Assembly (NCBI RefSeq): GCF_009909205.1
Contig: NZ_JAAAPN010000015.1
Location: 1-64,000 of the forward strand
Source: Aquabacterium fontiphilum
Lineage (GTDB): Bacteria > Pseudomonadota > Gammaproteobacteria > Burkholderiales > Burkholderiaceae_C
Direction of reading: 5' to 3'
DNA length: 64,000 nucleotides
Within the stretch, counting starts at the first letter, position 1. The number at the start of each line of letters is the position of its first letter. The notes below the pieces were generated by a model. The model ran no database searches. It saw only the letters and a list, made by a program, of their open reading frames with translations, and was not told the origin of the DNA. Positions 575-62,874 of the stretch are shown here, in pieces. The translations under genes and the position numbers were made by a program.

Positions 575-841
575 TCAACCATGAGCCGAGCGGTTCATGG
601 CCGCCCGCCAGCTCACCGTCATCAGCTCGACCTTGCCATCCGTCGTCGCAAGTTCTGCATTGAGCTTGTCCAGTTGACCCCGCTGTTGCTGCATCTGCCG
701 TTGAACCTGCTGTTGCAGGCCCCACAACCCGTCGTGCACCGCGAATGCAGCACGAATTGCGGCAATCAACACACTGGTGATGCCCCCCACTCGCACTGGT
801 TGTCGGTAAAGGCAACCTGACGCGGGCGTGAGGGGGAACAT
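575..841 (-). CDS. Possible small membrane-anchored coiled-coil protein
   Basis: An open frame of 88 codons on the minus strand. Residues 18-36 are hydrophobic and could form one membrane segment. Residues 40-66 are rich in Gln/Leu (WGLQQQVQRQMQQQ...) with coiled-coil spacing. That protein-like pattern is why it is listed. A later GTG at the VGGITSV stretch could be the true start. No clear ribosome binding site or sigma-54 promoter is visible, and I do not recognise a family. Overlapping open frames on the same stretch look like shadows. It could equally be non-coding. Confidence 0.27.
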   Translation of the reverse strand: MFPLTPASGCLYRQPVRVGGITSVLIAAIRAAFAVHDGLWGLQQQVQRQMQQQRGQLDKLNAELATTDGKVELMTVSWRAAMNRSAHG

Positions 842-848
842 GGATTGC
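834..848 (+). promoter_or_regulatory. Candidate sigma-54 promoter for the csbD-type gene
   Basis: GGGAACATGGATTGC has GG at -24 and GC at -12 with exactly 10 bases between. The TTGC half is perfect, while the -24 half has A for C. Predicted transcript start is near 860, giving a 43-base leader to the start at 903. Confidence 0.45.
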
Positions 849-902
849 AACTGAGCGAAGAGCCGGGAAAGTCCCCGGCAGCACGTGAAGAAGGAGCTAG
901 CG

Positions 903-1094
903 ATGAACCGAGACCAAGTGAAAGGCCGCGTTGACCAAGCCGTGGGCAAGGTAAAGGAAGAAACCGGTGACCTGCTGGATGACAAGTCGATGGAGCTGGA
1001 AGGCAAGGTCGACAAGAACATCGGCAAGGCGCAGGCGGAGGCGGGGGACGCTCGCGAGGACGTGAAGGACCTGCTGAACCGCAAGTCGCCGTAA
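903..1094 (+). CDS. CsbD-family stress response protein
   Basis: A 63-residue, highly charged soluble protein. It carries the CsbD hallmark of an N-terminal NRDQVKGRVDQAVGKVKEE stretch followed by a repeat of the K-G-K-x(5)-G-K pattern. CsbD proteins are small general-stress proteins of unknown biochemical function, induced by sigma-B in Bacillus and common in Proteobacteria. The start at 903 is chosen because a GAAGGAG ribosome binding site lies about 8 bases upstream; the GTG at 885 would remove that spacing. A candidate sigma-54 promoter sits at 834-848 and a hairpin terminator at 1163-1194, so it is probably a single-gene unit. It is cut off from the other stress genes by the replicon core. 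Confidence 0.85.
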   Translation: MNRDQVKGRVDQAVGKVKEETGDLLDDKSMELEGKVDKNIGKAQAEAGDAREDVKDLLNRKSP

Positions 1095-1162
1095 GAAGCT
1101 CAGCCGATCTGTGAGGGCGCATGCCGTCCTTCCATGGTCGTTTGCGAATCAGCCCACCTCAC

Positions 1163-1194
1163 GGGGCGGCACATGATGTGTCGCCCTATTTTTT
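1163..1194 (+). terminator. Rho-independent terminator after the csbD-type gene
   Basis: An inverted repeat (GGGCGGCACAT, then ATGTGTCGCCC, with overlapping centre) is followed by ATTTTTT. It lies 70 bases after the csbD-type stop codon and ahead of the recombinase. Confidence 0.75.
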
Positions 1195-1267
1195 GGTGCC
1201 TGACAAACATGATTACTGCAATAATCAATACGCAAAATTAATTCACCAAATGCGCGATTTGTAGACC

Positions 1268-3244
1268 ATGGCAGTGGCCGACAACCCGGTTTCCCTCACA
1301 CGCCGAAGAGGACGTCCAGTCGGCGCAGGCAGCCGCGTCCTTCAGACTGGCGATGGCGTGCTCGGCCTGCATCACCTCGCCTTTTTGCGCAGCTGGCTGC
1401 AGGGGCTGGACGTGAAATGGGCATGGGAGCGCTACATGGCCTTCGCACAAGCGTCCTCCGATCTGCGTCACATCGAGCACACCCGCCGGCAACTGTTGGC
1501 AACCGTGTTGCGGCTGGGCCATCAGCTGAACCTCACGCTACCGCCTGAGCGTCAGATCTCACGGGCCCTGAATGTCTTGAGCAAGGAGCCGGTCGTGGTG
1601 CCGGCCAAGGTGCAGCCTTCGCTGGATGAGTTCATTCAGCTTCAAGGGCTGGATCCCGACATGTACAGCGAGGCGGAGCTGCTGGAGCTTTACCAAGAGC
1701 ACTACGCCACGCCAGAGACCGATTCCAGCAGCGCCCATGTCCAAGCCTTGAACCAGGTGGGGGCCCTTTTGGCCACACCGCCCTCCCCTGCCGACCCTGT
1801 GAGCCGCTGGCTGGATGAAGGTCTGGCGGCCAAGCTACGGGGTGTGGGGGTGATCAGCGTGGCCAACCTGATTGACCTGATCAACCTGGACGGCTACCGA
1901 TGGTTTCGTCGGGTTCCCCGGTTGGGCGAGGTGCGGGCGGGCCGCATCGTTGCATGGCTCGACAGCCTAGAGGACGCACTGGGCTCAGCGATTGTCGAGA
2001 CGGCCCGCACGCCACCGCAGCGACTGCACGCCGCGCAAACTGCCGCACTGCGCATGATCGAAGACGCGCCACGTTTCGGTATCGTGCCGTTGGACGTGCT
2101 GTTGGTGCCCTCCTCCCTCAGCGGCGCCCACGGCGTCTTCCGCACACGGATGCCCAACACGCTCGGGGCGCATGACGACCTTGGTGCGGTGCGCGCGTGG
2201 CTGAACAAGTACCGCGAGCGCCCGCACACGCTGCGGTCCTATCGCAAAGAGGTCGAGCGCTTCTTGCTGTGGTGCCTTCATGAACAGCGCAAGCCACTGT
2301 CGTCGATCGATGCCAATGACTGCCAGGCCTACCGCGATTTTCTGCAGCACATCCCGGCACCCTGGTTGAACTCGCGGCGCCTGCCTCCGGGTCACGACGG
2401 CTGGCGACCGTTTCGCACGCAGTTGGAACCGGGTAGCCAGCGACTCGCGCTGGTCATCGTGCAGGCCATGTTCGAGGGGCTGCGCGATGCAGGCTACTTG
2501 GCTGCCAACCCGATGCGCGCCGTGATGACAGGCTTCAACCTGCCTGCAGCGCGCATCAATGTGGACAGGTCATTCACCGCACGTGAATGGGATTTTCTGA
2601 TGGCCTGTGCGGAGTCCGAGGCACCCTCCCCTCGTCAGCAACGGGTGCAGCTGCTGCTGGAGCTGCTCGTGGCCATGGGGCTGCGTGTTGATGAGCTGGC
2701 GAAGGCCAACCTGGCAGACCTGCATCGGGTGGAAGTACAAGGTGAGGCGGACGCGTGGCTGCTGGTCGTGACCGGCAAGCGCCGCAAGCAGCGAGAGGTC
2801 CCGATGCCCGACCACGTGGTGGCGTTGATCCACGCCCATCACGCTGCTTTCGACGCCATGGGAGCACCGCCCTCCCCTGCCCTCATCCGCGCGCTCGCCC
2901 GCCCGCCCCGCTGGGTGGCCACCGACGATGGCATCGAGTTGGACGCCCCGCCCCAACAAGGGCGCTTAGGGCCGGCCGGCATTTACACCTGCTTGAAACG
3001 CTTCTTCCAGCGCGCCGCGTTGCACTGCGCAAGCGCCGGACTGGATCCTGATCGACTGCGTCGCGGCTCCACCCATTGGTTGCGCCACACCTTTGGCCGA
3101 CAGGCAGCAGCGGATGCAGTGCCCGTGGAAATCATCCAGCAGGCGCTGGGGCACGCCTCGCTGGCCACCACCACGATTTACACCACGACGGAGCGTGACC
3201 GCATGATTCGAGCGCTGAGGGGCCGCAGCAAGCGGCGTGATTGA
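1268..3244 (+). CDS. Large tyrosine recombinase / phage-type integrase
   Basis: A 658-residue tyrosine recombinase. The C-terminal catalytic domain (about 440-658) has the expected residues: Arg473 in MGLRVDEL, Lys504 in TGKRRKQ, His603 and Arg606 in HWLRHTFG, His629 in LGHASL, and the nucleophile Tyr638 in TTIYTTT. A SAM-like core-binding domain with LRSYRKEVERFLLW is at about 310-420. The first 250 residues form the long N-terminal extension seen in the DUF3701-type integrases of Burkholderiales plasmids and islands. It probably resolves replicon multimers or integrates the element. It lies head to tail against parB, separated only by the parS-like sites. The upstream spacer (1200-1265) is notably AT-rich. 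The cognate recombination site is not identified. Confidence 0.9.
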   Translation: MAVADNPVSLTRRRGRPVGAGSRVLQTGDGVLGLHHLAFLRSWLQGLDVKWAWERYMAFAQASSDLRHIEHTRRQLLATVLRLGHQLNLTLPPERQISRALNVLSKEPVVVPAKVQPSLDEFIQLQGLDPDMYSEAELLELYQEHYATPETDSSSAHVQALNQVGALLATPPSPADPVSRWLDEGLAAKLRGVGVISVANLIDLINLDGYRWFRRVPRLGEVRAGRIVAWLDSLEDALGSAIVETARTPPQRLHAAQTAALRMIEDAPRFGIVPLDVLLVPSSLSGAHGVFRTRMPNTLGAHDDLGAVRAWLNKYRERPHTLRSYRKEVERFLLWCLHEQRKPLSSIDANDCQAYRDFLQHIPAPWLNSRRLPPGHDGWRPFRTQLEPGSQRLALVIVQAMFEGLRDAGYLAANPMRAVMTGFNLPAARINVDRSFTAREWDFLMACAESEAPSPRQQRVQLLLELLVAMGLRVDELAKANLADLHRVEVQGEADAWLLVVTGKRRKQREVPMPDHVVALIHAHHAAFDAMGAPPSPALIRALARPPRWVATDDGIELDAPPQQGRLGPAGIYTCLKRFFQRAALHCASAGLDPDRLRRGSTHWLRHTFGRQAAADAVPVEIIQQALGHASLATTTIYTTTERDRMIRALRGRSKRRD

Positions 3245-3349: not shown

Positions 3350-4384
3350 TCAACGAAAAGCGTGGGCCAGCGCCTCCACCAGTTGGTCGCGCTGCTGCGC
3401 CGTGAGCTCACGAGAGAACAGCACCGAGGTCGCGCCCTCCTTCGAAGTGATGACCGTGGCCAACCCAAGCCCGTTCGGCAAAGAAATCTGAACCTGGCTG
3501 GGCTTGAGCTCCTCCGCCTGTGCAGACGACTCAAACGTCAGTTCAGAAAAGGTCTGCTTGGCATCCATGCCTCGACCGGCGGCGCGCTGCGCTGCAATGC
3601 GACGCGCCCGCTCGATGACACCGGCTGCATCACGCTCGAATGCCCGGGCCAACTTGGTCGACCAGTTGAATTGGATATCGGTCCGCCGAGGAAACGCGTC
3701 CAGCACCACCGCCGGCAAACGCGCAATCCGGCAAGCTTTGGAGACGTTGCCCGGGTCCTGGCCAATCGCGTCGGCCAGCGCCCGCAACCCATCGAAGAGC
3801 CCCCACCCCTCAAGATCCGATCCTTCGGTCAGCTGGTTTCGCGGTGTCATCGCCCGCAGGTACCAAACGCCCTGCTCATACGCCGAAAGCGACTTGCGCT
3901 CCCGGTTCTCGCGTTCCATCTCGACGAACTGGCGCTGTTCGTCCAGGCCCTCGTCGACGATGGCGCGCACCTTGAGCCCCAGCTCGGCGCAGGCCCGGTG
4001 ACGTCGGTGCCCGTACACGATCTGGTAACGCCCTGGCTGTGCGGGAAACGGCACGACCTTGATGGGCTGCACGTTTCCACCTGCCGCGCGCACCTCCTCC
4101 TTGAAGCGCGCGAAGTCGATGCCCTCAAAGTCGATCCGATTGGCAAAACGCGAGGGGACCACGGCTGCCGGATCCAGTTCGAGGACGGGTTTGGCGCCCG
4201 CCCAGGCCTGCACGCGCTTCTTGAGCTCCGCGTTCTCGGCCTCCAGCGTGCTCTTGCGCTCGCTCAGCATGTCACCCACGCTCGTGCGGGGACGGGGTGG
4301 GGCAGGGCGCGGTGCAGCCGGGCTGCCCAGATTGCTCAGATCGAGCGCCGCGGCCAGATCAGTGGTTCTCACCCGCTTGTTCAT
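3350..4384 (-). CDS. parB: ParB-family partition protein
   Basis: A 344-residue centromere-binding protein with CTPase-type ParB architecture. The N-terminal tail (1-40, RVRTTDLAAALDLSNL) probably contacts ParA. A short coiled-coil stretch follows (about 41-61). The ParB/Srx core has the QPIKV strand (about 106-110) and the arginine box GHRRHRA (125-131). A helix-turn-helix with LADAIGQDPGNVSKACRIARLP lies at about 202-223, followed by a C-terminal dimerisation region. The start MNKRVR is chosen because its ATG overlaps the parA stop as ATGA, indicating translational coupling; an in-frame ATG 7 codons upstream lies inside parA. Three parS-like palindromes begin 4 bases after its stop codon. 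With ParA it segregates the replicon. Confidence 0.93.
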   Translation of the reverse strand: MNKRVRTTDLAAALDLSNLGSPAAPRPAPPRPRTSVGDMLSERKSTLEAENAELKKRVQAWAGAKPVLELDPAAVVPSRFANRIDFEGIDFARFKEEVRAAGGNVQPIKVVPFPAQPGRYQIVYGHRRHRACAELGLKVRAIVDEGLDEQRQFVEMERENRERKSLSAYEQGVWYLRAMTPRNQLTEGSDLEGWGLFDGLRALADAIGQDPGNVSKACRIARLPAVVLDAFPRRTDIQFNWSTKLARAFERDAAGVIERARRIAAQRAAGRGMDAKQTFSELTFESSAQAEELKPSQVQISLPNGLGLATVITSKEGATSVLFSRELTAQQRDQLVEALAHAFR

Positions 4385-5559
4385 GCGGCTCTCCAGTTGT
4401 TCCACACGCCGACGATCTCGGACTCAACCTCGTCGACAAAGGCCTCATACGCGTCAAAAGCGCGCGCATAGGTGTCCGCATCCACCTGGCTCTTGGGCAG
4501 GTCATAGATCGTGCCAAAGCCCAAGCCAGCATTGGTCACCGTCTCGGATTCCGGCACCTCCGTGCTCAGCACACGCCCGGCATACACATCGCGGATCCAA
4601 CTGCGCACGGCGGCCCCGGCAGTGGCGTTCTTCGGCTTGACCCGGGACAGCACGATGTCCACGAACTCGAAGCGCTTCTCGTCGCCACGCAGGTCGCTGA
4701 GGCTGCGTGCAATGTCCAGATAGAGCGACCAGAACTGGCTGAGCGACGCGAAATCCAGGTTGCTGGCCTGCACCGGGATGACCAACCCGTCGGCGGCCAT
4801 CAGGGCATTGATGGTCATGTAAGACAGGCTGGGCGAGCTGTCGATGACGATGACGTCGTACACATCGCGCAGTGGATCCAGGCCCAAATCCAGCGCACGC
4901 CAGAACTCGAAAGAGGGGTCGTCCTTCTGCCGAGCCGGCAACTTGAACTCGGCGGCATACAGCCGGGTCATCGCCGGGATCAAGTCCAAATCTGGCCAGT
5001 ACGTCGGGCGTACGGCGTAGCTGGCATCCGACTGCTCGCCAGAGAACAGCGGCGACAGCGTGTGCTCCTCATCGATCTCCACCCCCGGCAACAGGCCACA
5101 CAGCGTGGTTAGGGATGCCTGCGGATCCACGTCGACCAACAATACCTTGTGGCCCCGCAGGCTCAGCCCTTGCGCCAGATGAGCCGCGGTGGTCGTCTTA
5201 GACACGCCGCCCTTGAAGTTGGCCACGGCCACAGTCACCGCGGGCTGGTCGGAAGGACGCAGGTTCTCGCTGCGAAACTTGCGCGTCCACTGCTGCAATT
5301 CGGCGGTGGACCAGATCTTGCGGCTGGAGCCCTCCGGTAGCGTTCCTTCAGGAACCTGGCCCTTTTTGGCGTGGTAAGACACCTTGGCCCGGTCCATCCC
5401 GACAAAATGCCCGAGCTGAGATGCGTTCCATACCGGGGCCTTCTTGACTGCGTCTGGAGAGAGCAGCGTGCCGCGGATCTTTTCCAGCGCCAGTTCGGCG
5501 CGTTGCGAGATCTGTTCGATCTCGGCCAGGCCGGCTGGGCCATGGGGTGTCAAGTTCAT
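4381..5559 (-). CDS. parA: ParA-family partition ATPase with N-terminal DNA-binding region
   Basis: A 392-residue P1/SopA-like (type Ia) ParA. The first 100 residues contain a helix-turn-helix-like segment (VWNASQLGHFVGMDRAKVSYHAKKG) of the kind used to repress the par promoter. The ATPase domain has the deviant Walker A KGGVSKTT (116-123) with the signature lysine, the A' motif VDVDPQ (142-147) and Walker B VIVID (236-240). The start MNLTPHG at 5559 is preferred over longer upstream frames, which run through the promoter region and the 14-bp palindrome at 5671. It is the first gene of the parA-parB operon and is divergent from rep across oriV. ParA moves ParB-parS complexes over the nucleoid. 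Confidence 0.93.
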   Translation of the reverse strand: MNLTPHGPAGLAEIEQISQRAELALEKIRGTLLSPDAVKKAPVWNASQLGHFVGMDRAKVSYHAKKGQVPEGTLPEGSSRKIWSTAELQQWTRKFRSENLRPSDQPAVTVAVANFKGGVSKTTTAAHLAQGLSLRGHKVLLVDVDPQASLTTLCGLLPGVEIDEEHTLSPLFSGEQSDASYAVRPTYWPDLDLIPAMTRLYAAEFKLPARQKDDPSFEFWRALDLGLDPLRDVYDVIVIDSSPSLSYMTINALMAADGLVIPVQASNLDFASLSQFWSLYLDIARSLSDLRGDEKRFEFVDIVLSRVKPKNATAGAAVRSWIRDVYAGRVLSTEVPESETVTNAGLGFGTIYDLPKSQVDADTYARAFDAYEAFVDEVESEIVGVWNNWRAA

Positions 5560-5670
5560 GCTGATGACCACACAACGGGGTGAATACCGCCGCGTATGGT
5601 ATCGACTTGACGTTTTCCCGGCAATGGGGCAATTTTTGTAGAAACGACCGAAGTTTGAAAAAACTACAGT

Positions 5671-6202: not shown

Positions 6203-7474
6203 ATGACCACCGATCTGGCGCCCCGCTCTTCATCCAAGCCGCTGTTTCAGCGGCCGCGCGCGCTGTCGGTGTTCGCGCCCAAGGACAAGGGCTGGACGGC
6301 TGACTTGCGCAAGCTGTATGCGTGTCTGCTGTTCGAAGCCCAACGGACCATACGCAACAAAGGTGCGCCCCCGCTGTCCACGGAGTTCTTCCTGGCGCCG
6401 TGGCTGGACACGCTGGAGGCCGCTGGCATCAGTGCGAACTCGCGGACCACGATGAAAACGCGCTTGAAGGCGCTTCAGCGCATCACGTTTGAGTACGAAA
6501 CATTCGATGAACAGACGCAGCAGTTCATCGCAGGTGAGGGGCCTTTGATTGGCGAGACCGCCTACTCGGAAGGGTTCATCCACTACCAGCTGCCCGTGAC
6601 GCTGGTGCGGGAGCTGGCCGAGCCGCGGCGATGGTCCATGCAGGATCTGCGCATGCTGGTGGGGCTCGAAAGCTATGCGGCGGTGGCGCTGTATGACCTG
6701 GCCTGTCTGTATCGCAACAACCCCGGTCAGCTGACGCATCGCGAGACGCCGGTGTGGTGGGTGCATGCGCTGTCGCCGGTTCGACGTTCGCGTGAGTGGC
6801 GCAAGTTCAAGGCCGAGAACGTCGTGCGCGCCATCGAAGAGATCAATGACAAGACCGATCTGGATCTGGAGCTCATCGAACACAAGGAAGGCAAGGCTGT
6901 GGTGGCCGTGCAGTTCCGTGTGCGCCAGAAGGCAGTCGGTGGAGGAACATCCTCGCCCCAGGGGCCGCTCGATGGCCGAGTTGTCCGCCGGCTGGCCGGG
7001 CTGGATGTGTCTGAACGGGCCGTGACCGCATTGTTGCAGGCCCACAGCACCGATGCCGTGTGCACGGCGCTGGATCAACTTCACCATCGGATGGCGCAGC
7101 GCCACCTCGTGCCTGTGGTGAACCAGCTCTCCTACCTCAAGAGCATGCTGACACCGGTCAAGGTGGCGCAGATGGAGGTGCTGGCCGAAGGGGATCACCC
7201 GCCCCAGTTCGACCCGGGCATGGCGGCGGACATCGCGGTCATGGCTGCCGAGCCGACCACCGGGTCCGGCATGATGCCGGTCGACCGCGTGGAGCGCACT
7301 GATCCGCTGGCGGGACTCAGCGAGGCGCAGCGGGCCGAGCTGCTTGGACGGCTGGAGACGCTGATGCGCGACAAACGCGTGCTGACCCCTGCTGCGCAAC
7401 GGCGCATCCGCGCGGGAGATGTCTCGTCTCCCTTGTTGCGTCTGCACCTGGCCGAGCTGCTCAAGCCCGAGTAG
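6203..7474 (+). CDS. Rep_3-type replication initiator protein
   Basis: A 423-residue initiator. It begins with a 30-residue basic arm, then a winged-helix WH1 domain (about 35-160, including NSRTTMKTRLKALQRITFEYE) and a second winged helix (about 165-290, with ALSPVRRSREWRKFKAENVVRAIEEIN). The C-terminal 130 residues are of unclear fold. Proteins of this design bind iterons as monomers and repress their own promoter as dimers. The start ATG at 6203 is chosen because it follows the inverted half-iterons; upstream in-frame codons run through the iterons. It is divergent from parA with oriV between them, a complete minimal replicon in about 4 kb. Confidence 0.88.
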   Translation: MTTDLAPRSSSKPLFQRPRALSVFAPKDKGWTADLRKLYACLLFEAQRTIRNKGAPPLSTEFFLAPWLDTLEAAGISANSRTTMKTRLKALQRITFEYETFDEQTQQFIAGEGPLIGETAYSEGFIHYQLPVTLVRELAEPRRWSMQDLRMLVGLESYAAVALYDLACLYRNNPGQLTHRETPVWWVHALSPVRRSREWRKFKAENVVRAIEEINDKTDLDLELIEHKEGKAVVAVQFRVRQKAVGGGTSSPQGPLDGRVVRRLAGLDVSERAVTALLQAHSTDAVCTALDQLHHRMAQRHLVPVVNQLSYLKSMLTPVKVAQMEVLAEGDHPPQFDPGMAADIAVMAAEPTTGSGMMPVDRVERTDPLAGLSEAQRAELLGRLETLMRDKRVLTPAAQRRIRAGDVSSPLLRLHLAELLKPE

Positions 7475-11165: not shown

Positions 11166-11180
11166 GCAATTGACGTGCCT
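11166..11180 (-). promoter_or_regulatory. Sigma-54 promoter for egtB-egtD
   Basis: Minus strand AGGCACGTCAATTGC matches TGGCACG-N4-TTGC everywhere except the first base. Predicted transcript start at 11154, 23 bases before the egtB start. Confidence 0.75.
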
Positions 11181-13178: not shown

Positions 13179-13472
13179 TCAACGGCTGGGCTGAGTGAGC
13201 CGCGACACCACCACCCCGACGGCCACGGCAGTCAGCACGGATGCCAGCGGGTGGTCGCGCACGCAGTCTCGCAGCGCCTCCAGCCACTGATACTCCAGAT
13301 CGCCCAGTTCACGGGCCTTGTCTTCCAGGGTCTGAGCGGCTTGAGAAGCGGAGGTGTTGAGTTGATCCAGAGCGCCTTCTGCGGAGGAGGCAACCTGGTC
13401 GATGGCTTCATGGGCGGCCTGAGCTGTGCGTTGCACGAAGTCGCCGCCGGCGGTGTTCGGGTTGGTGGACAT
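13179..13472 (-). CDS. DUF883/ElaB-type membrane-anchored stress protein
   Basis: A 97-residue protein with a long Ala/Gln-rich amphipathic helix (TAQAAHEAIDQVASSAEGALDQ), then a charged stretch and a C-terminal membrane anchor DHPLASVLTAVAVGVVVSRL. This is the arrangement of the ElaB/YqjD/DUF883 family, inner-membrane proteins linked to ribosome association in stationary phase in E. coli. The start MSTNPN at 13472 fits the sigma-54 promoter 36 bases upstream. A related paralogue is at 58081. It is convergent with the ZIP gene. Confidence 0.82.
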   Translation of the reverse strand: MSTNPNTAGGDFVQRTAQAAHEAIDQVASSAEGALDQLNTSASQAAQTLEDKARELGDLEYQWLEALRDCVRDHPLASVLTAVAVGVVVSRLTQPSR

Positions 13473-13507: not shown

Positions 13508-13522
13508 GCAAACTGCATGCCG
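13508..13522 (-). promoter_or_regulatory. Sigma-54 promoter for the DUF883-type gene at 13472
   Basis: Minus strand CGGCATGCAGTTTGC matches the consensus except at the first base. Predicted transcript start 13496, 24 bases before the start codon. Confidence 0.72.
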
Positions 13523-13595: not shown

Positions 13596-13610
13596 GGGCG
13601 CGTGGCTTGC
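13596..13610 (+). promoter_or_regulatory. Candidate sigma-54 promoter for the 13649 operon
   Basis: GGGCGCGTGGCTTGC has a perfect TTGC and a single internal change (G for A) in the -24 half. Predicted transcript start 13622, 27 bases before the start codon. Confidence 0.6.
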
Positions 13611-14080: not shown

Positions 14081-14109
14081 CCGACCTCATCCTATTTGCG
14101 GAGCACACC

Positions 14110-15696: not shown

Positions 15697-15735
15697 GCTG
15701 GTCTCCGGTAGGAAATGGATGGCGCGCTGTACGGG

Positions 15736-15750
15736 GCAGGCGGCATGCCA
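15736..15750 (-). promoter_or_regulatory. Sigma-54 promoter for the dehydrogenase gene
   Basis: Minus strand TGGCATGCCGCCTGC has a perfect -24 half including T at the first position; the -12 half reads CTGC. Predicted transcript start 15724, 28 bases before the start codon. Confidence 0.62.
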
Positions 15751-15764: not shown

Positions 15765-15779
15765 CGGCATGCCGTTTGC
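15765..15779 (+). promoter_or_regulatory. Sigma-54 promoter for the AsmA-family gene
   Basis: CGGCATGCCGTTTGC matches the consensus except at the first base. Predicted transcript start 15791, 22 bases before the start. It is back to back with the dehydrogenase promoter, 14 bases apart. Confidence 0.75.
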
Positions 15780-17842: not shown

Positions 17843-17857
17843 GGGAACAGGCCTTGC
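17843..17857 (+). promoter_or_regulatory. Candidate sigma-54 promoter for the 17915 gene
   Basis: GGGAACAGGCCTTGC has perfect TTGC and spacing, and the -24 half reads GGAACA, a variant shared with sites 834, 19633 and 32183. Predicted transcript start 17869, 46 bases before the start codon. Confidence 0.5.
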
Positions 17858-36924: not shown

Positions 36925-36930
36925 CGGCGC

Positions 36931-45403: not shown

Positions 45404-45418
45404 AGGCCCACCGATTGC
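45404..45418 (+). promoter_or_regulatory. Candidate sigma-54 promoter for the second CBS gene
   Basis: AGGCCCACCGATTGC has C for A and A for G in the -24 half and a perfect TTGC. Predicted transcript start 45430; 26-base leader. Confidence 0.5.
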
Positions 45419-53398: not shown

Positions 53399-53977
53399 TC
53401 AGCGCGACTGCCCACCCGTGGTGGCTGTACCGGTGTTCGTGCCCGTGTTGTTCGGCGAACCTGACTGGCTGGCACTGCCGGCTTGGCCTGCGCCCACTCC
53501 GTAGAAGCGGCGGTTCTCCGTGCTCCACTTCTCGTCGATCACGTTCGGCCAATTGTTCGGCTCGAAGCTGGGGGCGTCCTTCAGACGGTTCTTGTCGATG
53601 TCCAGCAGACGGTAGTCCCGGCCAGGCACGTTCTGGACGGCGGACCACGGCACTGCATGCAGGCGATCACCGATGCCCAGGAAGCCACCCGTCGAAACCA
53701 CGGCGTAAGTGATGGCGCCATTGCGGTCCACCACGATGTCTTTGATGTCGCCGATCTTCTCGCCCCGCGCATTGCGCAGGTCGGTGCCCATGATCTTGCT
53801 CACACGGTAGATGCGCTGCCAGTCATCAGCGCCCCCGCGGGCCGTGGGCGTTGCTGTTCCGGCTGCGGTGCCGCCGGTGTTGGCTGCGCCTGTGCCGCCA
53901 GTTTGTGCCCAGGCGCCGGAGGCAGCCAGCGACACGGCCACTGCGGCAAGAATCTGTCGGGTCGATTGAGTCTTCAT
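53399..53977 (-). CDS. Secreted PRC-barrel protein heading the glycan operon
   Basis: A 192-residue exported protein. The signal peptide (1-24) ends GAWAQ. A Gly/Thr-rich linker follows, then a PRC-barrel (about 55-140: SKIMGTDLRNARGEKIGDIKDIVVDRNGAITYAVVSTGGFLGIGDRLHAVPW) and a Gly/Ser/Asn/Thr-rich tail. Its barrel core closely resembles the cytosolic 14110 protein. AGGAG precedes the ATG. It is the first gene after a near-perfect sigma-54 promoter; the next seven genes follow with gaps below 25 bases, so its promoter probably serves them all. Confidence 0.88.
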   Translation of the reverse strand: MKTQSTRQILAAVAVSLAASGAWAQTGGTGAANTGGTAAGTATPTARGGADDWQRIYRVSKIMGTDLRNARGEKIGDIKDIVVDRNGAITYAVVSTGGFLGIGDRLHAVPWSAVQNVPGRDYRLLDIDKNRLKDAPSFEPNNWPNVIDEKWSTENRRFYGVGAGQAGSASQSGSPNNTGTNTGTATTGGQSR

Positions 53978-54017: not shown

Positions 54018-54032
54018 GCAAGCCACGTGCCC
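54018..54032 (-). promoter_or_regulatory. Sigma-54 promoter for the PRC-barrel/glycan operon (53977 to 45906)
   Basis: Minus strand GGGCACGTGGCTTGC matches the consensus except at the first base. Predicted transcript start 54006; 29-base leader. It drives about 8 kb of tightly packed genes. Confidence 0.77.
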
Positions 54033-57160: not shown

Positions 57161-57531
57161 GCGTCGGGTTGCTGCCCCATGAGACGCTGACGTGCCTGCG
57201 CCACCTCCTGCTCCTCTTCATCCGCATCGGTATCGGTATCGAAAAGGTCTGGCTCGGGGGGCGGTGGTGCCAGGTCGGGTGTGGTGGCGATGTGATCGGG
57301 CAGGATGTCACCGGCTTCGCGCACATGCTGCCCGTCGGCGGCACCCAGGAGCTCACCTGTGCCGGTGGAGTCAGTGTCTGCGGTCATGCCGTGCAGGCTG
57401 CCATCCACATCGACGCCAGCGATGTCGCTGGCGCTGTCGGACGTGTCGCTTGGACCCAATGCGCCGGTGCCATGACCTGGCCGCACGGGTTGGCTGTCCT
57501 CATCCAATCCAAGCAGAGGGCTGTGTGCCAT
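57154..57531 (-). CDS. Hypothetical acidic protein
   Basis: A 125-residue, strongly acidic and Pro-rich protein (MAHSPLLGLDEDSQPVRPGHGTG...) with a final helical stretch EEEQEVAQARQRLMGQQ. Most of it appears disordered. No family recognised. The start has CAGGAG and lies 25 bases after a predicted sigma-54 transcript start, which supports it as a real gene. It overlaps the 3' end of the kinase gene by 7 bases. Confidence 0.65.
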   Translation of the reverse strand: MAHSPLLGLDEDSQPVRPGHGTGALGPSDTSDSASDIAGVDVDGSLHGMTADTDSTGTGELLGAADGQHVREAGDILPDHIATTPDLAPPPPEPDLFDTDTDADEEEQEVAQARQRLMGQQPDAQ

Positions 57532-57567: not shown

Positions 57568-57582
57568 GCAAGCCATGTGCCC
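57568..57582 (-). promoter_or_regulatory. Sigma-54 promoter for the 57531 gene
   Basis: Minus strand GGGCACATGGCTTGC has a perfect TTGC and one change after CAC. Predicted transcript start 57556; 25-base leader. It is nearly identical to the site at 54018. Confidence 0.7.
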
Positions 57583-57603: not shown

Positions 57604-58077
57604 TCAACGCAGCACGCTGATGCTGCCATCCGACTCCATGTAGGCCCGCTTGACCTGTCGCAGGTCCTCAATGCCCTGAGACCGTAGCTTGGCCTGAAGT
57701 TCTTCCACAGTGAGCAGCTCCTGCTGGAGGTTGCCATACAGCACGCGGCCATGCTTGACCAGCAGCAGCGGTGGAGGGCTGACCAGGCGTCGAAACGATG
57801 GGAAGCGGTAGCTGGCCCAGTCGAGCGTGTAGTTCCACCCGACTATGGTGCTGATCAGCAGCATGCCTTCCGTGATGGTCTTGTATTCCCCGGCCATGGC
57901 GTTCTGTGCCGCATCGGCGATCAGAACCAGCAGCAGCACGTCTGCGATGGTCACCGAGCCGATGTCACGCCGTAGTACGAAGCGAAAGATCAGGAACAAG
58001 AACCAGTAAATGGCCGTGCCGCGCAGAACGATCTCGCCTGGCGACATCGTTATGTCAAACAGCCCGGCCACACTCAT
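57604..58077 (-). CDS. YetF/DUF421-family membrane protein
   Basis: A 157-residue membrane protein with three hydrophobic helices (about 18-35, 42-62, 70-88), followed by the small YetF cytoplasmic domain (RRLVSPPPLLLVKHGRVLYGNLQQELLTVEELQAKLRSQGIEDLRQVKRAYMESDGSISV). The domain is complete. The family is associated with sporulation and stress in Bacillus and is common near PRC-barrel and DUF883 genes. No biochemical role is established. It follows the DUF883-like gene by 3 bases and ends before the 57531 promoter. Confidence 0.9.
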   Translation of the reverse strand: MSVAGLFDITMSPGEIVLRGTAIYWFLFLIFRFVLRRDIGSVTIADVLLLVLIADAAQNAMAGEYKTITEGMLLISTIVGWNYTLDWASYRFPSFRRLVSPPPLLLVKHGRVLYGNLQQELLTVEELQAKLRSQGIEDLRQVKRAYMESDGSISVLR

Positions 58078-58080: not shown

Positions 58081-58362
58081 TCAGCGGCGCAGAAGCTGGC
58101 GCACCACCATGCCGGCTGCAAGGGCCAGGCCCAGGCTTTTCAGGGGGTGCGTCCGCACATAGCTCTGCGTCTCGTTGACCCAGCGACGGCCTTGGGGCTC
58201 CAGGCGCTGTGCAGCGTGCTGCAGGTTGTCCACCATGCGATGCGCCCCGCTTTGCAGGTCGTCGACCACGGCATGCGCGCGGCTGCCTGCCTCACGACTC
58301 AAGGGGCTGCGCATGGCGTCGGTCATGTCGGAAAGAGGGGAAGTCGAATGCAACTTGGTCAT
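58081..58362 (-). CDS. DUF883/ElaB-like membrane-anchored protein
   Basis: A 93-residue protein. A helical region (AVVDDLQSGAHRMVDNLQHAAQRLEPQGRRWVNETQSYV) is followed by the C-terminal anchor THPLKSLGLALAAGMVVRQLLRR. It resembles the 13179 protein in layout. The ATG overlaps the isochorismatase stop (ATGA). Middle gene of an isochorismatase-DUF883-YetF operon. Likely an inner-membrane stress protein. Confidence 0.82.
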   Translation of the reverse strand: MTKLHSTSPLSDMTDAMRSPLSREAGSRAHAVVDDLQSGAHRMVDNLQHAAQRLEPQGRRWVNETQSYVRTHPLKSLGLALAAGMVVRQLLRR

Positions 58363-58994
58363 GTGGCTCTCCTGATGGCAAGGGGAGCCAGATTGAGCAA
58401 CTCGTGTGCCTGCCATGCCGTGGAGGCGCGCACATCGGCCTTGAAGACCCGTTGCATGTAGGCCAGCGCCTGCGCATGACGCTCAAGCGATTCAGCCGCG
58501 GCACAATCTTGCGGCACCCACAACCCGAAGCCACGAAGGTAGGCGTCTGCGGCGCTCATCTGGACGCACATGTCGGTGGACAGCCCGCCGATGATGAGGC
58601 GCTGGCAACCCAGGTGATCCAGCAGCAGATCAAGAGGGGTGCCATAAAACGCCGAGTGCCGCGGCTTGAGGATGACGTAGTCCGGCTCCTGGGGCGCCAG
58701 CAGGCGTACCAGCTCCGCGGCCACGCCCCCTTTCTGAACACATTGCGCTTTCACGTCACGAAACTCGCTGTGCCACGCGCCATAATGGTCATTGGCGTAC
58801 ACCGTGACCACCTGGTGAGACGCCAGCCTGTGCTTGAGCGCCGCAAGACGCGACGCCATGTGCAGGGCCGATTCCTCCAGATGTGGCGCCTCTGGGAAGG
58901 TCAGAGGATTGATCACATCGACCAAGAGCAGTACCAGCGGACTGGTGTCCGAGGTGGCCTGGGCTATCGGCGTGTCGGGACGATGAACATGCAT
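58359..58994 (-). CDS. Isochorismatase-like cysteine hydrolase
   Basis: A 211-residue enzyme with the complete triad Asp26 (VLLLVDVINPL), Lys110 (VILKPRHSAFYGTPLD) and Cys143 (GGLSTDMCVQMSAADA). The family includes nicotinamidase, isochorismatase and N-carbamoyl hydrolases; residues do not settle the substrate. The start at 58994 is uncertain because the sigma-54 site at 59008-59022 predicts a transcript beginning at 58996, two bases before the ATG. Divergent from the NtrC-type regulator gene. Confidence 0.88.
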   Translation of the reverse strand: MHVHRPDTPIAQATSDTSPLVLLLVDVINPLTFPEAPHLEESALHMASRLAALKHRLASHQVVTVYANDHYGAWHSEFRDVKAQCVQKGGVAAELVRLLAPQEPDYVILKPRHSAFYGTPLDLLLDHLGCQRLIIGGLSTDMCVQMSAADAYLRGFGLWVPQDCAAAESLERHAQALAYMQRVFKADVRASTAWQAHELLNLAPLAIRRAT

Positions 58995-59007: not shown

Positions 59008-59022
59008 GCAAGCTGGATGCCG
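59008..59022 (-). promoter_or_regulatory. Candidate sigma-54 promoter for the isochorismatase operon
   Basis: Minus strand CGGCATCCAGCTTGC has a perfect TTGC and one change (C for G) at the end of the -24 half. Predicted transcript start 58996, nearly at the assigned start codon. Confidence 0.52.
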
Positions 59023-59103: not shown

Positions 59104-60489
59104 ATGAGCCATGCCCTGATCGTTGAGGATGACCGCGAAGCGGCCGAGATGATGGCCGCATTGATCGCCACAGAGAACTTCACCGTGGCGACCGCCCACA
59201 GCCTCCGCGAAGCGCGTGCGCAGCTGTCGTTGAACCAACCTGACCTTGTCCTGCTGGATCTGATGCTGCCTGACGGCAGCGGCATGGATCTGCTGGACGA
59301 CGGGCAGATGCTGGCCAACTCCGAAGTTGTGTTGATCACCGGCCACGCCAGCCTGGAAACATCCATCCAGGCTTTGCGTCATGGGGCTGCTGATTACCTG
59401 ATCAAACCGGTCAACATCAAGCAGCTGCAGGGCATTCTGTCGCGCGTGATGCGCCCGTCCGAGCTGCAGGCTGAACTGGTGTCCTTGCGCGAGAACGTCG
59501 AGGCACATGGCCATTTCGGTCATCTGTGGGGCCGGTCTTCGGCCATGCAGCGTGTCTATGAGCAACTGGCCAAGGTGGCCATCACCTCGGTGACGGTGTT
59601 CGTCACTGGCGAGAGCGGCAGCGGCAAGGAAGTGGTGGCGCGTACCGTGCACGATCTCAGCCGCCGACGCAAGCATCCCTTCCTGGCCGTCAACTGCGGG
59701 GCCATTTCGCCGAACCTGATTGAAAGCGAGATCTTCGGCCACGAGAAGGGCAGCTTCACGGGTGCCGAACGCACGCACCAGGGCTTTTTCGAGCGTGCCC
59801 ACGGCGGCACATTGTTCCTGGACGAAGTTACCGAGATGCCGCTGGAACTGCAGGTCAAGCTGCTGCGTGTGTTGGAAACCGGGATGTTCATGCGTGTGGG
59901 TTCGACCCAGCCGCGAGAGGCCGACGTGCGCATCATCGCGGCCACCAACCGTGATCCGATGCAGGCCGTGGCGCAAGGCAAGTTGCGTGAGGACCTGCTG
60001 TACCGGCTCAATGTGTTCCCGCTGTCATTGCCGCCCTTGCGCGATCGGCTGGAAGACATTCCGTTGCTGGCCGAGCATTTCCTGCAAGACATCTGCCAGC
60101 GCGAAGGCAAGCAGCGTCATTTCTCGGCGACGGCTCTGGAGGCCATGCAGCACTATCGCTGGCCAGGCAATGTGCGCGAGTTGCGCAACGTGGTGCAGCG
60201 CGCCTATGTGATGGCCAATGGCAGCGAGATCGGCCCGGACTGGATGCCTTGCGGCAGCGCGCCAGAGCCAGTGGTGGTGTCCAGTGGTACGCCGTCGCTG
60301 ACTTTGAAGATCGGCTCATCCATGGCGGAGGCGGAGCGCGCCTTGATCCTGGCCACGCTGCAGCATTTCGACAACCACAAGGAACGCACGGCGGCAGTGC
60401 TGGGCATCAGCCTCAAGACGCTGTACAACCGCTTGAAGGAGTACGCCAACGAGGTCGGCGCTGGCAGCAGCGAGTCTTCAGCGGCGTGA
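59104..60489 (+). CDS. NtrC-type sigma-54-dependent response regulator
   Basis: A 461-residue enhancer-binding activator. Receiver domain 1-120: acidic pocket Glu8/Asp9, phospho-acceptor Asp52 in LLDLMLPDG, and Lys101 in LIKPVN. AAA+ domain 140-380: Walker A GESGSGKE (169-176), sigma-54 contact loop GSFTGA (216-221) in place of the usual GAFTGA, Walker B GGTLFLDE (234-241), and the arginine-containing sensor regions. C-terminal Fis-type helix-turn-helix (HKERTAAVLGISLKTLYNRLKEY). AGGAGAG precedes the start. It carries no -24/-12 site of its own. It is the obvious activator of the island's sigma-54 promoters, presumably phosphorylated by a kinase in this region. Confidence 0.95.
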   Translation: MSHALIVEDDREAAEMMAALIATENFTVATAHSLREARAQLSLNQPDLVLLDLMLPDGSGMDLLDDGQMLANSEVVLITGHASLETSIQALRHGAADYLIKPVNIKQLQGILSRVMRPSELQAELVSLRENVEAHGHFGHLWGRSSAMQRVYEQLAKVAITSVTVFVTGESGSGKEVVARTVHDLSRRRKHPFLAVNCGAISPNLIESEIFGHEKGSFTGAERTHQGFFERAHGGTLFLDEVTEMPLELQVKLLRVLETGMFMRVGSTQPREADVRIIAATNRDPMQAVAQGKLREDLLYRLNVFPLSLPPLRDRLEDIPLLAEHFLQDICQREGKQRHFSATALEAMQHYRWPGNVRELRNVVQRAYVMANGSEIGPDWMPCGSAPEPVVVSSGTPSLTLKIGSSMAEAERALILATLQHFDNHKERTAAVLGISLKTLYNRLKEYANEVGAGSSESSAA

Positions 60490-60563: not shown

Positions 60564-61016
60564 TCAGGGCGCAGGGTAGTGTCCGTCCAGCGAGAACATG
60601 TGACGCAGACGCTGCAGCACAAAGCCCGCATCAATCGGCTTGAGCCAGCGCTCCTGGACGGACGTGTCCGCAATCGACACCTGGTCATCGGCCGTCACCA
60701 GGATGGCGGGGATGCTGCCGAGGCCCGGCCGAGTGCGCAGCTGATCAAGCAGCTGCAAGCCATTGCCATCCGGCAGGGTGTAATCCAGCAGGAGCAAGTC
60801 GGGAGGGCAACGCGTGGCTTGGCGCCAGCCCGCTGCCGCCGTCTCGGCCACTTCGACATCGAAGGCCGGATGCAGTCGCAGCAGTTCGGCCATCACCATG
60901 GCATTGATCGGGTTGTCCTCGACGTACAGCACGCGCACCCGTCGTGGCGGGATCGGGTGATGCATCGGCACATGCGGTTGAGGTTGGGGGTGGGCGGACA
61001 TGACAGCAGCGAGCAT
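60564..61016 (-). CDS. Single-domain response regulator
   Basis: A 150-residue protein: a 25-residue Pro/His-rich leader, then one receiver domain with VLYVEDNPINAMVMAELL, phospho-acceptor Asp in LLLLDYTLPDGNG, and the conserved Lys in RWLKPID. No output domain, so it works by contacting another protein or as a phosphate sink. The start at 61016 has GGGAG 9 bases upstream; the ATG at 61001 is an alternative. A near-perfect sigma-54 promoter lies 35 bases upstream, so the system makes this receiver when active, as expected for feedback. Confidence 0.88.
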   Translation of the reverse strand: MLAAVMSAHPQPQPHVPMHHPIPPRRVRVLYVEDNPINAMVMAELLRLHPAFDVEVAETAAAGWRQATRCPPDLLLLDYTLPDGNGLQLLDQLRTRPGLGSIPAILVTADDQVSIADTSVQERWLKPIDAGFVLQRLRHMFSLDGHYPAP

Positions 61017-61050: not shown

Positions 61051-61065
61051 GCAAACCGCATGCCT
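61051..61065 (-). promoter_or_regulatory. Sigma-54 promoter for the single-domain receiver
   Basis: Minus strand AGGCATGCGGTTTGC matches the consensus except at the first base. Predicted transcript start 61039; 23-base leader. Confidence 0.77.
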
Positions 61066-61091
61066 GCGCATCGCGCTGCTGTACATGAGGT

Positions 61092-61106
61092 CGGCATGCG
61101 CTTCGC
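61092..61106 (+). promoter_or_regulatory. Weak candidate sigma-54 promoter for fumC
   Basis: CGGCATGCGCTTCGC has a perfect -24 half but TCGC at -12. Predicted transcript start 61118; 21-base leader. Confidence 0.42.
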
Positions 61107-61138
61107 CACAGTGAGCCCACAGTCTCAAGGAGCATGCA

Positions 61139-62599
61139 ATGTCCGCCAGAACCGAATGGGATTCACTGGGCAGCGTGGAGGTGCCCGCCGACCGGCTCTG
61201 GGGCGCCCAGACACAACGGGCCCTCCACCACTTTGCGGTGTCCACCGAGTGCCTGCCTGCGGAGTTCCTGCATGCGCTGGCGTTGGTCAAGCAGGTTTGC
61301 GCTCAGGTCAACGGCGAACTGGGCGTGCTGGCGCCGACGCTGGCGCAGGCCATCTCGGATGCCGCCGACGAGGTGATGCAGGGGCACCATCCGGAGCAGT
61401 TTCCGCTCCGGATCTGGCAGTCTGGCTCCGGCACCCAAACCAATATGAACATGAACGAGGTGTTGGCTCGCTTGGCGTCGCATCGATTGGGCGAGCAGGC
61501 GCAGGACGCGCCTCATGTTCATCCGAACGACCATGTCAATCGCAGTCAGTCATCCAACGACATCATTCCCACGGCGCTTCAGGTGAGTTGCGTGACGGCC
61601 GTGCAGCGCCTGCTCCCGGCGCTGGTGCGTCTGCGCGCGGAGATCGTGGCCAAAGCCCGCTTGTATGCCGATCTGATCAAGGTGGGGCGCACGCATCTGC
61701 AAGACGCCGTGCCCATGACGGTGGAGCAGGAATGGATGGCATTTGAGGCCCAGCTGGCCCTGTGCAGCGACGCGATCGAACGGGCTTTGCTGCCAGTGCT
61801 GGCCTTGCCGGTGGGCGGTACGGCCGTGGGCACCGGGCTGAATGCACCGCCCACGTTCGGCCACCTGGTGTGCGCGCGCCTGGCCGCCCAGGTGGGGTGG
61901 CCCTTTCGAGAGGCTGACAACAAGTTCGCCTGGATTGCGGCCCACGACGCCTTGGTGGGGTTGCATGGCAGTCTGCGCCAACTGGCGGTGGTGCTGATGA
62001 AACTGGCCAACGATCTGCGTTGGCTGGGTTCAGGGCCCCGCTGTGGTCTGGGCGAGCTGACGCTGCCGGCCAACGAGCCAGGCAGCTCCATCATGCCGGG
62101 CAAGGTCAACCCCAGTCAGTGCGAGATGATGATGATGGTGTGCACCCAGGTGATGGGTAACGACGTCACAGCGGGGCTGTGTGGCGCCCAGGGCAACCTT
62201 CAACTCAACACATTCAAGCCCTTGCTGGCCCACACCCTGTTGCAGAGCCTGCGCTTGCTGACCGACGCCTGCATGAGCTTCGAGGCGCATTGCCTGCAGG
62301 GGGCCCGCGTGGATGCACAGCGTACGCACGGGTACGTCGAGCGCTCGCTGATGACCGTGACAGCCCTGGTGCCACACGTGGGCTATGACCATGCTGCCCG
62401 AATTGCCCAGCTTGCCTATCGCGAGGGTCTGACGCTTTCGGAGGCGGCCCGGGCCATGGGTGTGGACCCCGAGGATGTGGCGCGCTGGACCAAGGCGGAT
62501 CAGCTGGTGCCCGGCTGGCGGGCGCGTCGCTCAGAGCCACCAGGGCCGGTGTCCTCAGGTGGAACCGAGCCCCCACCCGATGACCGCGCCGGGTCGTAG
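61139..62599 (+). CDS. fumC: Class II (iron-independent) fumarase
   Basis: A 486-residue fumarate hydratase interconverting fumarate and malate. It starts RTEWDSLGSVEVPADRLWGAQTQRALHHF and has GSGTQTNMNMNEVLA, the B-site-like segment HPNDHVNRSQSSND, KVGRTHLQDAVPMT, and the catalytic Ser loop GSSIMPGKVNPSQCE. Class II fumarases lack an Fe-S cluster and replace class I enzymes under oxidative or iron stress, which fits the island. The C-terminal 25 residues are Pro/Gly/Ser-rich and overlap the convergent 62500 gene by 100 bases. AAGGAG precedes the start. Confidence 0.93.
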   Translation: MSARTEWDSLGSVEVPADRLWGAQTQRALHHFAVSTECLPAEFLHALALVKQVCAQVNGELGVLAPTLAQAISDAADEVMQGHHPEQFPLRIWQSGSGTQTNMNMNEVLARLASHRLGEQAQDAPHVHPNDHVNRSQSSNDIIPTALQVSCVTAVQRLLPALVRLRAEIVAKARLYADLIKVGRTHLQDAVPMTVEQEWMAFEAQLALCSDAIERALLPVLALPVGGTAVGTGLNAPPTFGHLVCARLAAQVGWPFREADNKFAWIAAHDALVGLHGSLRQLAVVLMKLANDLRWLGSGPRCGLGELTLPANEPGSSIMPGKVNPSQCEMMMMVCTQVMGNDVTAGLCGAQGNLQLNTFKPLLAHTLLQSLRLLTDACMSFEAHCLQGARVDAQRTHGYVERSLMTVTALVPHVGYDHAARIAQLAYREGLTLSEAARAMGVDPEDVARWTKADQLVPGWRARRSEPPGPVSSGGTEPPPDDRAGS

Positions 62600-62823
62600 G
62601 GTTCAAGGCCAGGCTCATGTGGCCGGTCTGGCACGAAGTCACCGTAGGAGCCGCTGCCATCGGTGCGCGTCCCACCACTGAGAGCGCCTCGTTGGGGATC
62701 ATCCGGGCATGCGTCGTCGGGCTGACCGCCGTGGCGCTCCGTGGTCGGGTGCGGCTGGGTCTGCGCAGGCTGGTTGCCGGCAGCGCGGCGATCGGTGAAG
62801 CGTGGTGGGGGATTCTGGAACAT
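62500..62823 (-). CDS. Hypothetical disordered protein overlapping the end of fumC
   Basis: A 107-residue polar protein (MFQNPPPRFTDRRAAGNQPAQ...) rich in Pro, Gly, Asp and Arg, with no folded domain visible. Evidence that it is real: an AGGAG ribosome binding site 7 bases before the ATG and a near-perfect sigma-54 promoter placing the transcript start 25 bases upstream. It may be a hydrophilin-like desiccation protectant, judged only by composition. The first 224 bases lie outside fumC. Confidence 0.62.
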   Translation of the reverse strand: MFQNPPPRFTDRRAAGNQPAQTQPHPTTERHGGQPDDACPDDPQRGALSGGTRTDGSGSYGDFVPDRPHEPGLEPYDPARSSGGGSVPPEDTGPGGSERRARQPGTS

Positions 62824-62859
62824 GGGAGCGCTCCTGTCGGGCCGAATGCGCTGCATGCG

Positions 62860-62874
62860 GCAAGCGCCATGCCG
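62860..62874 (-). promoter_or_regulatory. Sigma-54 promoter for the 62823 gene
   Basis: Minus strand CGGCATGGCGCTTGC matches the consensus except at the first base. Predicted transcript start 62848; 25-base leader. It lies between the gene and the hybrid kinase stop. Confidence 0.74.

Follow-up and report, generated by a model that had tools for sequence, protein, structure and literature searches.

The locus

We analysed bases 1-64000 of contig C15 of Aquabacterium fontiphilum (hereafter the window; the contig has 99,229 bases, or 2.7% of a 3.65 Mb genome assembled in 37 contigs), which carry a second gene for sigma-54, rpoN2, a gene for an NtrC-type activator and a dense set of sites resembling sigma-54 (-24/-12) promoters. 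An earlier reading of the sequence alone (the original prediction) had described a self-contained sigma-54 regulon run by its own RpoN, activator and hybrid kinase. The three genes named were all recovered (rpoN at 30459-31958, the NtrC-type regulator at 59104-60489 and the hybrid kinase at 54179-57160); the self-contained character was not borne out in that the host genome has another rpoN gene, rpoN1, on contig C11. The features central to the analysis are as follows (gene identities from Pfam).

30459-31958, minus strand: rpoN2, second sigma-54, with AID, core-binding and DNA-binding domains
32019-32032, minus strand: rpoN2's own -24/-12 promoter, followed by A at -11
32122-32138, no strand assigned: upstream dyad of rpoN2, best copy (matrix score 15.2), candidate enhancer
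32142-32158, no strand assigned: second, weaker copy of the dyad (matrix score 8.5)
54179-57160, plus strand: hybrid histidine kinase (Cache, PAS, HisKA, HATPase, REC)
59104-60489, plus strand: NtrC-type activator (REC, AAA+ with GSFTGA loop, Fis-type helix-turn-helix)
60564-61016, minus strand: single-domain response regulator (site at 61051-61064)
62894-64000, minus strand (to 64795 of the contig): second hybrid histidine kinase

The three domains of RpoN2 score above cut-off (PF00309, 52.6 bits; PF04963, 194.9 bits; PF04552, 206.3 bits). Its best model is NCBIfam NF009118 (PRK12469; 563 bits, cut-off 396), which is not discriminating, as rpoN1 scores 515.

Density, position and orientation of the -24/-12 sites

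Position -26 denotes the base before the GG of the -24 element and position -11 the base after the GC of the -12 element. Sites were scanned with a literature consensus for sigma-54, at thresholds of ≥11.5, ≥12 and ≥12.5. At ≥12.5 the window holds 38 matches, 25 intergenic and 13 coding (1.66 versus 0.115 per kb-strand). When -11 was left out of the score, 20 intergenic and 8 coding matches were found in the window (intergenic/coding ratio of 20), as against 19 and 78 in 400 kb of chromosome (ratio of 2.5); this chromosomal control consists of 20 hand-picked stretches, several of them around listed sites, and is if anything too site-rich. The same ratio was 24 in C15 64-99 kb and 11 in the loci of 80 relatives. 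Such a scan of window and chromosome was the check that the original prediction had proposed, and its outcome, a 20-fold excess against a 2.5-fold one, bears out the crowding of sites before genes.

For the exact pattern GGCAY-N5-TTGC, the whole genome yields 142 occurrences, of which 17 fall within the window. Per 64 kb, 2.2 occurrences are expected from the 125 sites outside the window and 0.5 from a reversed-pattern control; the excess originally estimated (16 against about one by chance) thus holds. Sites lying 12-130 nt upstream of a start codon and pointing at it number 32 at ≥12 and 44 at ≥11.5, the latter with TTGC in 30 cases and GGCAY in 22, in agreement with the 32 sites, 28 TTGC and 19 GGCAY counted before. 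Site density is 5.6 per kb near starts versus 0.53 elsewhere. The gene set behind this count was edited manually: six starts were added, five of them while the sites were visible, and one start was removed together with four gene calls that were weak or too long. These changes slightly favour the near class. For the window the median distance from site to start codon is 37 nt, and for the relatives 50 nt.

At ≥12.5, the window and the rest of the contig have 6 sites directed with the genes, 2 against, 20 in divergent gaps and 1 in a convergent gap. The corresponding numbers for the 80 relatives are 208, 52, 237 and 16, and when only the best-scoring sites of their tandem gaps are taken, 88 run with the genes versus 10 against. 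Sites of the canonical form GG-N10-GC with TTGC were therefore found upstream of genes and in the same direction, as predicted, although on contig C15 the tally is just 6:2. A C at -11 makes the site an imperfect palindrome, and both strands score as promoters at 15735-15749, 21956-21970 and 26955-26969.

Two promoter classes

The regulon promoters have a derived spelling, GGCAYG-N4-TTGCC, in which -26 is not T and -11 is in most cases C. The consensus proposed originally, TGGCACG-N4-TTGC, fails at its first base: T precedes 0 of the 17 window sites, and the canonical TGGCAC was not found among them. Outside the window, the genome contains 32 copies of TGGCAY-N5-TTGC, including two on the remainder of C15.

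Three sets were compared, drawn from 80 named loci and contig C15: regulon promoters (338), matches within coding sequence (303) and promoters of rpoN2 itself (67). C at -11 is present in 279/338 regulon promoters (83%), 138/303 coding matches (46%) and 1/67 rpoN2 promoters (1.5%). T at -26 is found in 30/338 regulon promoters and 37/303 coding matches, and G at -26 in 177/338 regulon promoters versus 2/67 rpoN2 promoters. Judged against the coding matches, C at -11 is a gain and -26 a preference lost down to background, because the former stands at 279/338 versus 138/303 and T-26 at 30/338 versus 37/303. Counted by locus, C holds the majority at -11 in 63 of 78 loci, is even in 5 and in the minority in 10.

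The contrast extends to whole genomes. With one search pattern, C-11 was found in 53/92 listed matches of five genomes with RpoN2 and in 8/40 of five genomes lacking it (P = 6e-5; some of the 40 sites are the same orthologous site). The five with RpoN2 contribute 19/26 (G013), 14/22 (G022), 8/17 (G000), 8/18 (G025) and 4/9 (G001). T at -26 was present in 3/26 sites of G013, the sole RpoN2-bearing genome read at this position, versus 20/40 in the five lacking RpoN2. A pattern joining promoter, ribosome-binding site and ATG has a median of 14.5 occurrences in the 16 RpoN2-bearing genomes of the genus versus 7 in the 21 others (P = 1.1e-5), and the canonical pattern showed no comparable excess between the same two groups. 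The strict form SGGCAYGN4TTGCC occurs 21 times in the A. fontiphilum genome, 8 times on C15 and 13 times elsewhere. The regulon is largely confined to C15, since those 13 are near the level of genomes lacking RpoN2 (median of 9).

The promoter of rpoN2 and its upstream dyad

A -24/-12 site precedes rpoN2 in 75 of 80 readable loci, the window included, with -11 being G in 40, A in 27, T in 6 and C in 2. Thus -11 of this promoter drifts among G, A and T and avoids C. Under a stricter filter the difference from the regulon is 1/67 versus 279/338 (P = 2e-39, the orthologous promoters not being independent). In these 67, -26 is C in 36, T in 19, A in 10 and G in 2. In the related genus Aquincola, a promoter with a mapped start, dependent on RpoN1, reads TGGCAC / CTGCTT, i.e. 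T at -26 and T at -11 (PMC9850573). This agrees with an RpoN1 class marked by T-26 and by a base other than C at -11.

An enriched word, CGGTAAAT, pointed to a 17-bp dyad, CGGYAA-N3-TTRCCG, upstream of rpoN2; in the window it lies 90-126 bp before the -24 GG. Sigma-54 normally needs an enhancer, some 80-150 bp upstream of the promoter. A dyad score of ≥8 was reached before rpoN2 in 60/80 loci versus 5/80 shuffled ones, at a median of -222 from the start codon, with a matrix fitted on the same loci. The search was therefore repeated on held-out halves, giving 25-31/40 versus 2-7/40 shuffled (averages of 28.5 and 4; relatives may span the halves). Single matches prove little, because on the chromosome, too, matches at ≥10 are commoner in intergenic than in coding DNA (0.31 versus 0.09 per kb). 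Two dyad-like matches (scores 12.3 and 11.8) also occur at 5626-5670, about 55-100 bp upstream of parA; instead of being enhancers, they perhaps serve partition or replication.

Other candidates were discarded. A dyad GGCA-N7-TGCC upstream of regulon promoters (59/338 versus 3) is the promoter spelling itself, contributed by divergent promoters, and the enriched words CGGTACTT and TTGGTGAC are mostly rpoN2's own RpoN-box codons ahead of the next promoter.

The RpoN2 clade

In a tree of 127 proteins, 86 of RpoN2 type stand apart from the remaining 41 (support 1.0); with six sequences added, the 86 stay together (support 0.89). The nearest sisters are a Comamonadaceae plasmid paralogue, a Burkholderia paralogue and L050. 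In the RpoN box, RpoN2 proteins have T481 (86/86) and Q485 (85/86) versus A (41/41) and E (39/41) in the rest. After the helix-turn-helix, N408 (86/86) replaces T (38/41) at what is, by alignment, position 386 of PDB 7qv9 chain M; in region I, R19 (86/86) stands against Q (41/41). Region I and the helix-turn-helix contact DNA downstream of and around -12 (PMC7057263). T481 and Q485 alone cannot explain C-11, because the Burkholderia paralogue shares both and its neighbours have G at -11. N408 is not unique, the TNN being found also in a plasmid RpoN of Bradyrhizobium. C at -11 is thus probably a derived trait of the RpoN2 clade, and N408 and R19 are the candidate residues for reading it. Around the sister paralogues L253 and L050, the base at -11 of the sites is mostly G, which suggests that this spelling is older.

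The 80 named relatives of rpoN2 are nearly all from Burkholderiales or from metagenome-assembled genomes labelled so or by phylum, and include Aquabacterium, Azohydromonas, Caldimonas, Rhizobacter, Roseateles, Rubrivivax and Hydrogenophaga. Within the genus, RpoN2 is present in 16 of 37 genomes; two of the other 21 (82% and 71% complete) showed no rpoN at all. Seven genomes in an even draw of 300 from the order, this one included, match RpoN2 (E ≤ 2.1e-135, identity of at least 51%); six of the seven have an activator match of at least 57% and the seventh a partial match of 51%. No RpoN2 orthologue of at least 60% identity was found among 203 matching PLSDB plasmid records. Rhizobacter sp. Root1221 and OV335 have two RpoN2-type loci each (L095 and L159; L123 and L152), and four rpoN paralogues are reported for Aquincola RN12 (PMC9850573).

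The activator and the kinases

An activator orthologue (at least 67% identity) is present in 16/16 genomes of the genus with RpoN2 versus 0/21 without it (P = 8e-11). Within the flanks of rpoN2 (up to 10 kb), an activator match over at least half the length was found in 33/80 loci, with a median identity of 68%. The GSFTGA loop was read in the window protein and in 33 of 35 orthologue entries (six loci being entered twice) and is unread in two; it cannot serve as a mark of this activator, for it also occurs in a further activator of the A. fontiphilum genome.

The pairing of the 54179 kinase with the activator, part of the original prediction, is at most putative: just weak matches occur near rpoN2, in 10/80 loci, with a median identity of 33% (the query start was over-long). 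Kinases 33-41% identical to the second one, at 62894, adjoin the activator in 10 of the 33 loci, with match centres 1.3-1.4 kb apart, a link that has no counterpart for the 54179 kinase.

Genes behind the sites

The remaining sites of the window and the genes that they face are listed here.

835-848, plus: promoter-like site before CsbD-like gene 903-1094
11166-11179, minus: promoter of egtB-egtD (11131-8889)
13508-13521, minus: promoter of DUF883-type gene 13179-13472 (Pfam match below cut-off)
13597-13610, plus: promoter-like site before 13649-14520 (second gene PRC barrel)
15736-15749, minus: promoter-like site before zinc dehydrogenase 14524-15696
15766-15779, plus: promoter of AsmA-family gene 15813-17822
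17844-17857, plus: promoter-like site before 17915-18409
18451-18464, plus: promoter-like site before BON gene 18541-18870
19633-19646, minus: promoter-like site before OmpA gene 18949-19599
21957-21970, minus: site toward small open reading frame (ORF) 21432-21887 (start set by hand)
21987-22000, plus: promoter of MscS-type channel 22036-23196
26916-26929, minus: promoter of otsA-otsB operon, via weak ORF 26420-26845
26955-26968, plus: promoter of CBS / Hsp20 operon 27025-28936
30428-30441, minus: promoter of 30006-30392 and PfkB kinase 28921-30009
32184-32197, plus: promoter-like site before glycosyltransferase operon 32232-35616
35620-35633, plus: promoter-like site before DUF4398/OmpA/AI-2E operon 35672-38022
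41113-41126, minus: promoter of OmpA-barrel gene 40030-41019
41158-41171, plus: promoter-like site before glycosyltransferase 41206-42366 (start set by hand)
44823-44836, minus: promoter of glycosyltransferase/DUF2334 operon 44789-42901
44853-44866, plus: weak site (11.5) before DUF2383 gene 44921-45373
45405-45418, plus: promoter-like site before CBS gene 45456-45893
54018-54031, minus: promoter of PRC-barrel gene 53399-53959 (start set by hand)
57568-57581, minus: promoter of 57154-57531
58118-58131, minus: promoter-like site before DUF421 gene 57604-58077
58397-58410, minus: promoter of DUF883-type gene 58081-58362 (Pfam match below cut-off)
59008-59021, minus: site 14 nt before isochorismatase-type gene 58359-58994
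61051-61064, minus: promoter of response regulator 60564-61016
61093-61106, plus: promoter-like site before fumarase C 61139-62599
62860-62873, minus: site toward small ORF 62500-62823 (start set by hand)

The families behind the sites comprise ergothioneine and trehalose synthesis, MscS, AsmA, OmpA, BON, PRC, CBS and Hsp20, together with DUF883-type, DUF2383, DUF421, fumarase C, CsbD and many glycosyltransferases. The Mn catalase gene (11296), previously counted among the site-bearing operons, lacks a site of ≥11.5 within 130 nt. The gene content suggests a regulon of general stress and envelope protection; the original label of a general stress regulon agrees with this content but goes beyond what gene families alone can tell. 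A stretch of about 1 kb (20896-22036) contains -24/-12 sites, with no Pfam match among the two ORFs scanned.

The contig also carries genes for its own replication and partition (Pfam).

3350-5571, minus strand: parB and parA partition genes (ParA, ParB)
6203-7474, plus strand: plasmid replication initiator, Rep3 C-terminal winged helix (Rep3_C)

A large tyrosine recombinase with DUF3701 (1358-3244) adjoins them. C15 is probably a plasmid, given the Rep3-type initiator, ParA, ParB and the recombinase; comparison of the contig ends found no overlap that would close a circle. Some relatives have rpoN2 on long contigs, of up to 3.9 Mb in G013.

Proposed mechanism and alternatives

We favour, with a probability of about two in three, a private sigma-54 system in which RpoN2 and the NtrC-type activator would run the regulon and an RpoN1-type promoter would make RpoN2. 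RpoN2, with the activator and its GSFTGA loop, would transcribe about 20-30 stress, envelope and glycan operons from the -24/-12 promoters. The rpoN2 gene itself would most likely be switched on when the enhancer-bound activator acts on the RpoN1 holoenzyme, and RpoN2 would then read the C-11 promoters. Such a two-step cascade is suggested because the rpoN2 promoter is of another class (G or A at -11, upstream dyad) than those of the regulon. RpoN1 would thus serve one class and RpoN2 the other, the dyad would be the binding site of the activator, and the output may be a stress response. The unit of one RpoN and one activator originally envisaged is retained in so far as a dense promoter set lies on one replicon (8 of the 21 strict sites being on C15); it has to be amended in that the promoters have diverged (-26 not T, -11 mostly C) and rpoN2 has a promoter of another class. 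More tentatively, and with rather less than even odds, we see here a transferable, orthogonal sigma-54 stress response, with a re-spelled -11, a cascade from one sigma-54 to another and an insulated regulon moving between Burkholderiales as an island or plasmid.

A number of observations weigh against the private system. The counts of the joint promoter, ribosome-binding site and ATG pattern overlap: G003 and G031, which have RpoN2, have 7 and 6, and G019, which lacks it, has 15. In the window, C-11 is present in just 10 of 15 scored regulon promoters (3 T, 2 A), and ten promoter-like sites of the chromosome have it in 4. G013, the first genome compared, is the strongest of the five, the -11 contrast being weaker in the other four, and since the loci share ancestry and the rpoN2 promoters are orthologous, the P-values overstate independence. 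The rpoN2 promoter is not cleanly canonical (T-26 in 19/67). Regulon promoters show the dyad in 65/308 cases versus 39/308 in a downstream control, which provides no convincing enhancer for them, and the activator gene has a site of its own in 7/32 loci and none in the window. Activator homologues of 51-63% identity occur in genomes of the wider order where a single rpoN was found (G058, G094, G148, G169, G180, G186, G269 and G325, with at most 5 candidates scored per genome); the activator family therefore seems older than its pairing with RpoN2. Finally, G031 and G014 show RpoN2 only, without a detected RpoN1.

This last gap, if real, means that RpoN2 would have to read its own promoter, and it speaks for positive autoregulation, whereby RpoN2 drives its own gene along with the regulon and G or A at -11 tunes promoter strength. 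The lack of canonical T-26 in 48/67 rpoN2 promoters would also suit this explanation. However, C at -11 in only 2/75 rpoN2 promoters looks like avoidance of the regulon spelling, and the missing rpoN1 may be an assembly gap: the completeness of G014 is 92%, and many assemblies place rpoN1 3-5 kb from where a contig begins. We regard autoregulation as unlikely, though it fares best among the alternatives. Slightly less probable still is a single sigma-54 pool, in which RpoN1 and RpoN2 read all promoters, spelling reflects GC content and strength, and specificity comes from the activator alone. Bradyrhizobium RpoNc and RpoNp do bind mostly the same promoters in gel shifts (PMC13207237), and the background at both -26 and -11, as seen in coding matches, is rich in C and G; against a common pool stand the frequencies of C-11 within the same loci (83% in the regulon, 46% in coding matches, 1.5% in rpoN2 promoters) and the absence of an excess of such promoters in genomes lacking RpoN2. 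That the sites are instead operators of a dimeric DNA-binding protein is very improbable: C-11 does create an imperfect palindrome, GGCA-N7-TGCC, with some sites scoring in both orientations, but the half-sites are unequal (YG against A), the sites of tandem gaps in relatives point with the genes (208:52, best 88:10; only 6:2 on C15) and their median distance of 37 nt from the start in the window is that of promoters.

Comparison with known systems

Sigma-54 is usually one shared factor whose promoters are told apart just by activators. To our knowledge, the general stress response is a job otherwise given to sigma-70-type factors. Regulons of the sigmaB and EcfG type have a similar gene list (CsbD, DUF883, PRC, BON, Hsp20, Mn catalase, trehalose synthesis) and use sigma-70-family factors with anti-sigma switches, none of which appeared among the Pfam matches of the window proteins scanned. 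Among the matches listed in the open-licence literature, we found no paper on the stress regulon of the RpoN2 clade, no transferable sigma-54-run stress regulon this large and no two promoter classes in one locus suggesting a sigma-54 cascade. Here paralogue, activator, promoter spelling and target genes go together, and relatives keep two promoter classes in one locus. With this system, one can test base by base and residue by residue how a sigma-54 alters its promoter preference, and also whether general stress responses can be governed by a sigma-54 cascade.

The closest relatives by sequence are the plasmid paralogues of Burkholderia stagnalis (L253) and Comamonadaceae OTU4NAUVB1 (L255), sisters of RpoN2 that share the RpoN box ARRTVTKYRQ; L255 also has an activator homologue (60% identity) one small gene away. 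They differ in that position 408 is not N, and all 5 of the intergenic sites close to L253 carry G at -11 (near the further sister L050, G 8, A 2 and T 1 of 11). Ralstonia solanacearum RpoN2, likened here by description and not by sequence, is likewise from Burkholderiales, lies on a second replicon (megaplasmid) and is 44% identical to its RpoN1; it differs in not being required for the traits in the title of the paper (PMC4371752). The megaplasmid RpoNp of Bradyrhizobium sp. DOA9 is also a plasmid-borne second RpoN tied to stress adaptation, and some of its predicted sites have C replacing T before the -24 GG, whereas its 22 predicted sites may be used by either RpoN and the second change lies before the -12 GC, not at -11 (PMC13207237). 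The plasmid protein from Bradyrhizobium that entered our comparison, an RpoN of B. guangxiense, shares 34% identity and falls outside the RpoN2 clade.

That specialised RpoN paralogues can be told apart at -11 is already known from Cereibacter (Rhodobacter) sphaeroides, in which RpoN1 and RpoN2 promoters differ at this position (PMC11999139, PMC3162934). The likeness goes further, as this species has several sigma-54 copies (RpoN1/NifA, RpoN2/FleQ, RpoN3/AprX), those studied with their own activator and gene set. There, the sets concern nif, flagella and one repressor; here, they concern stress and envelope functions in a Burkholderiales clade, and rpoN2 itself stands behind another promoter class.

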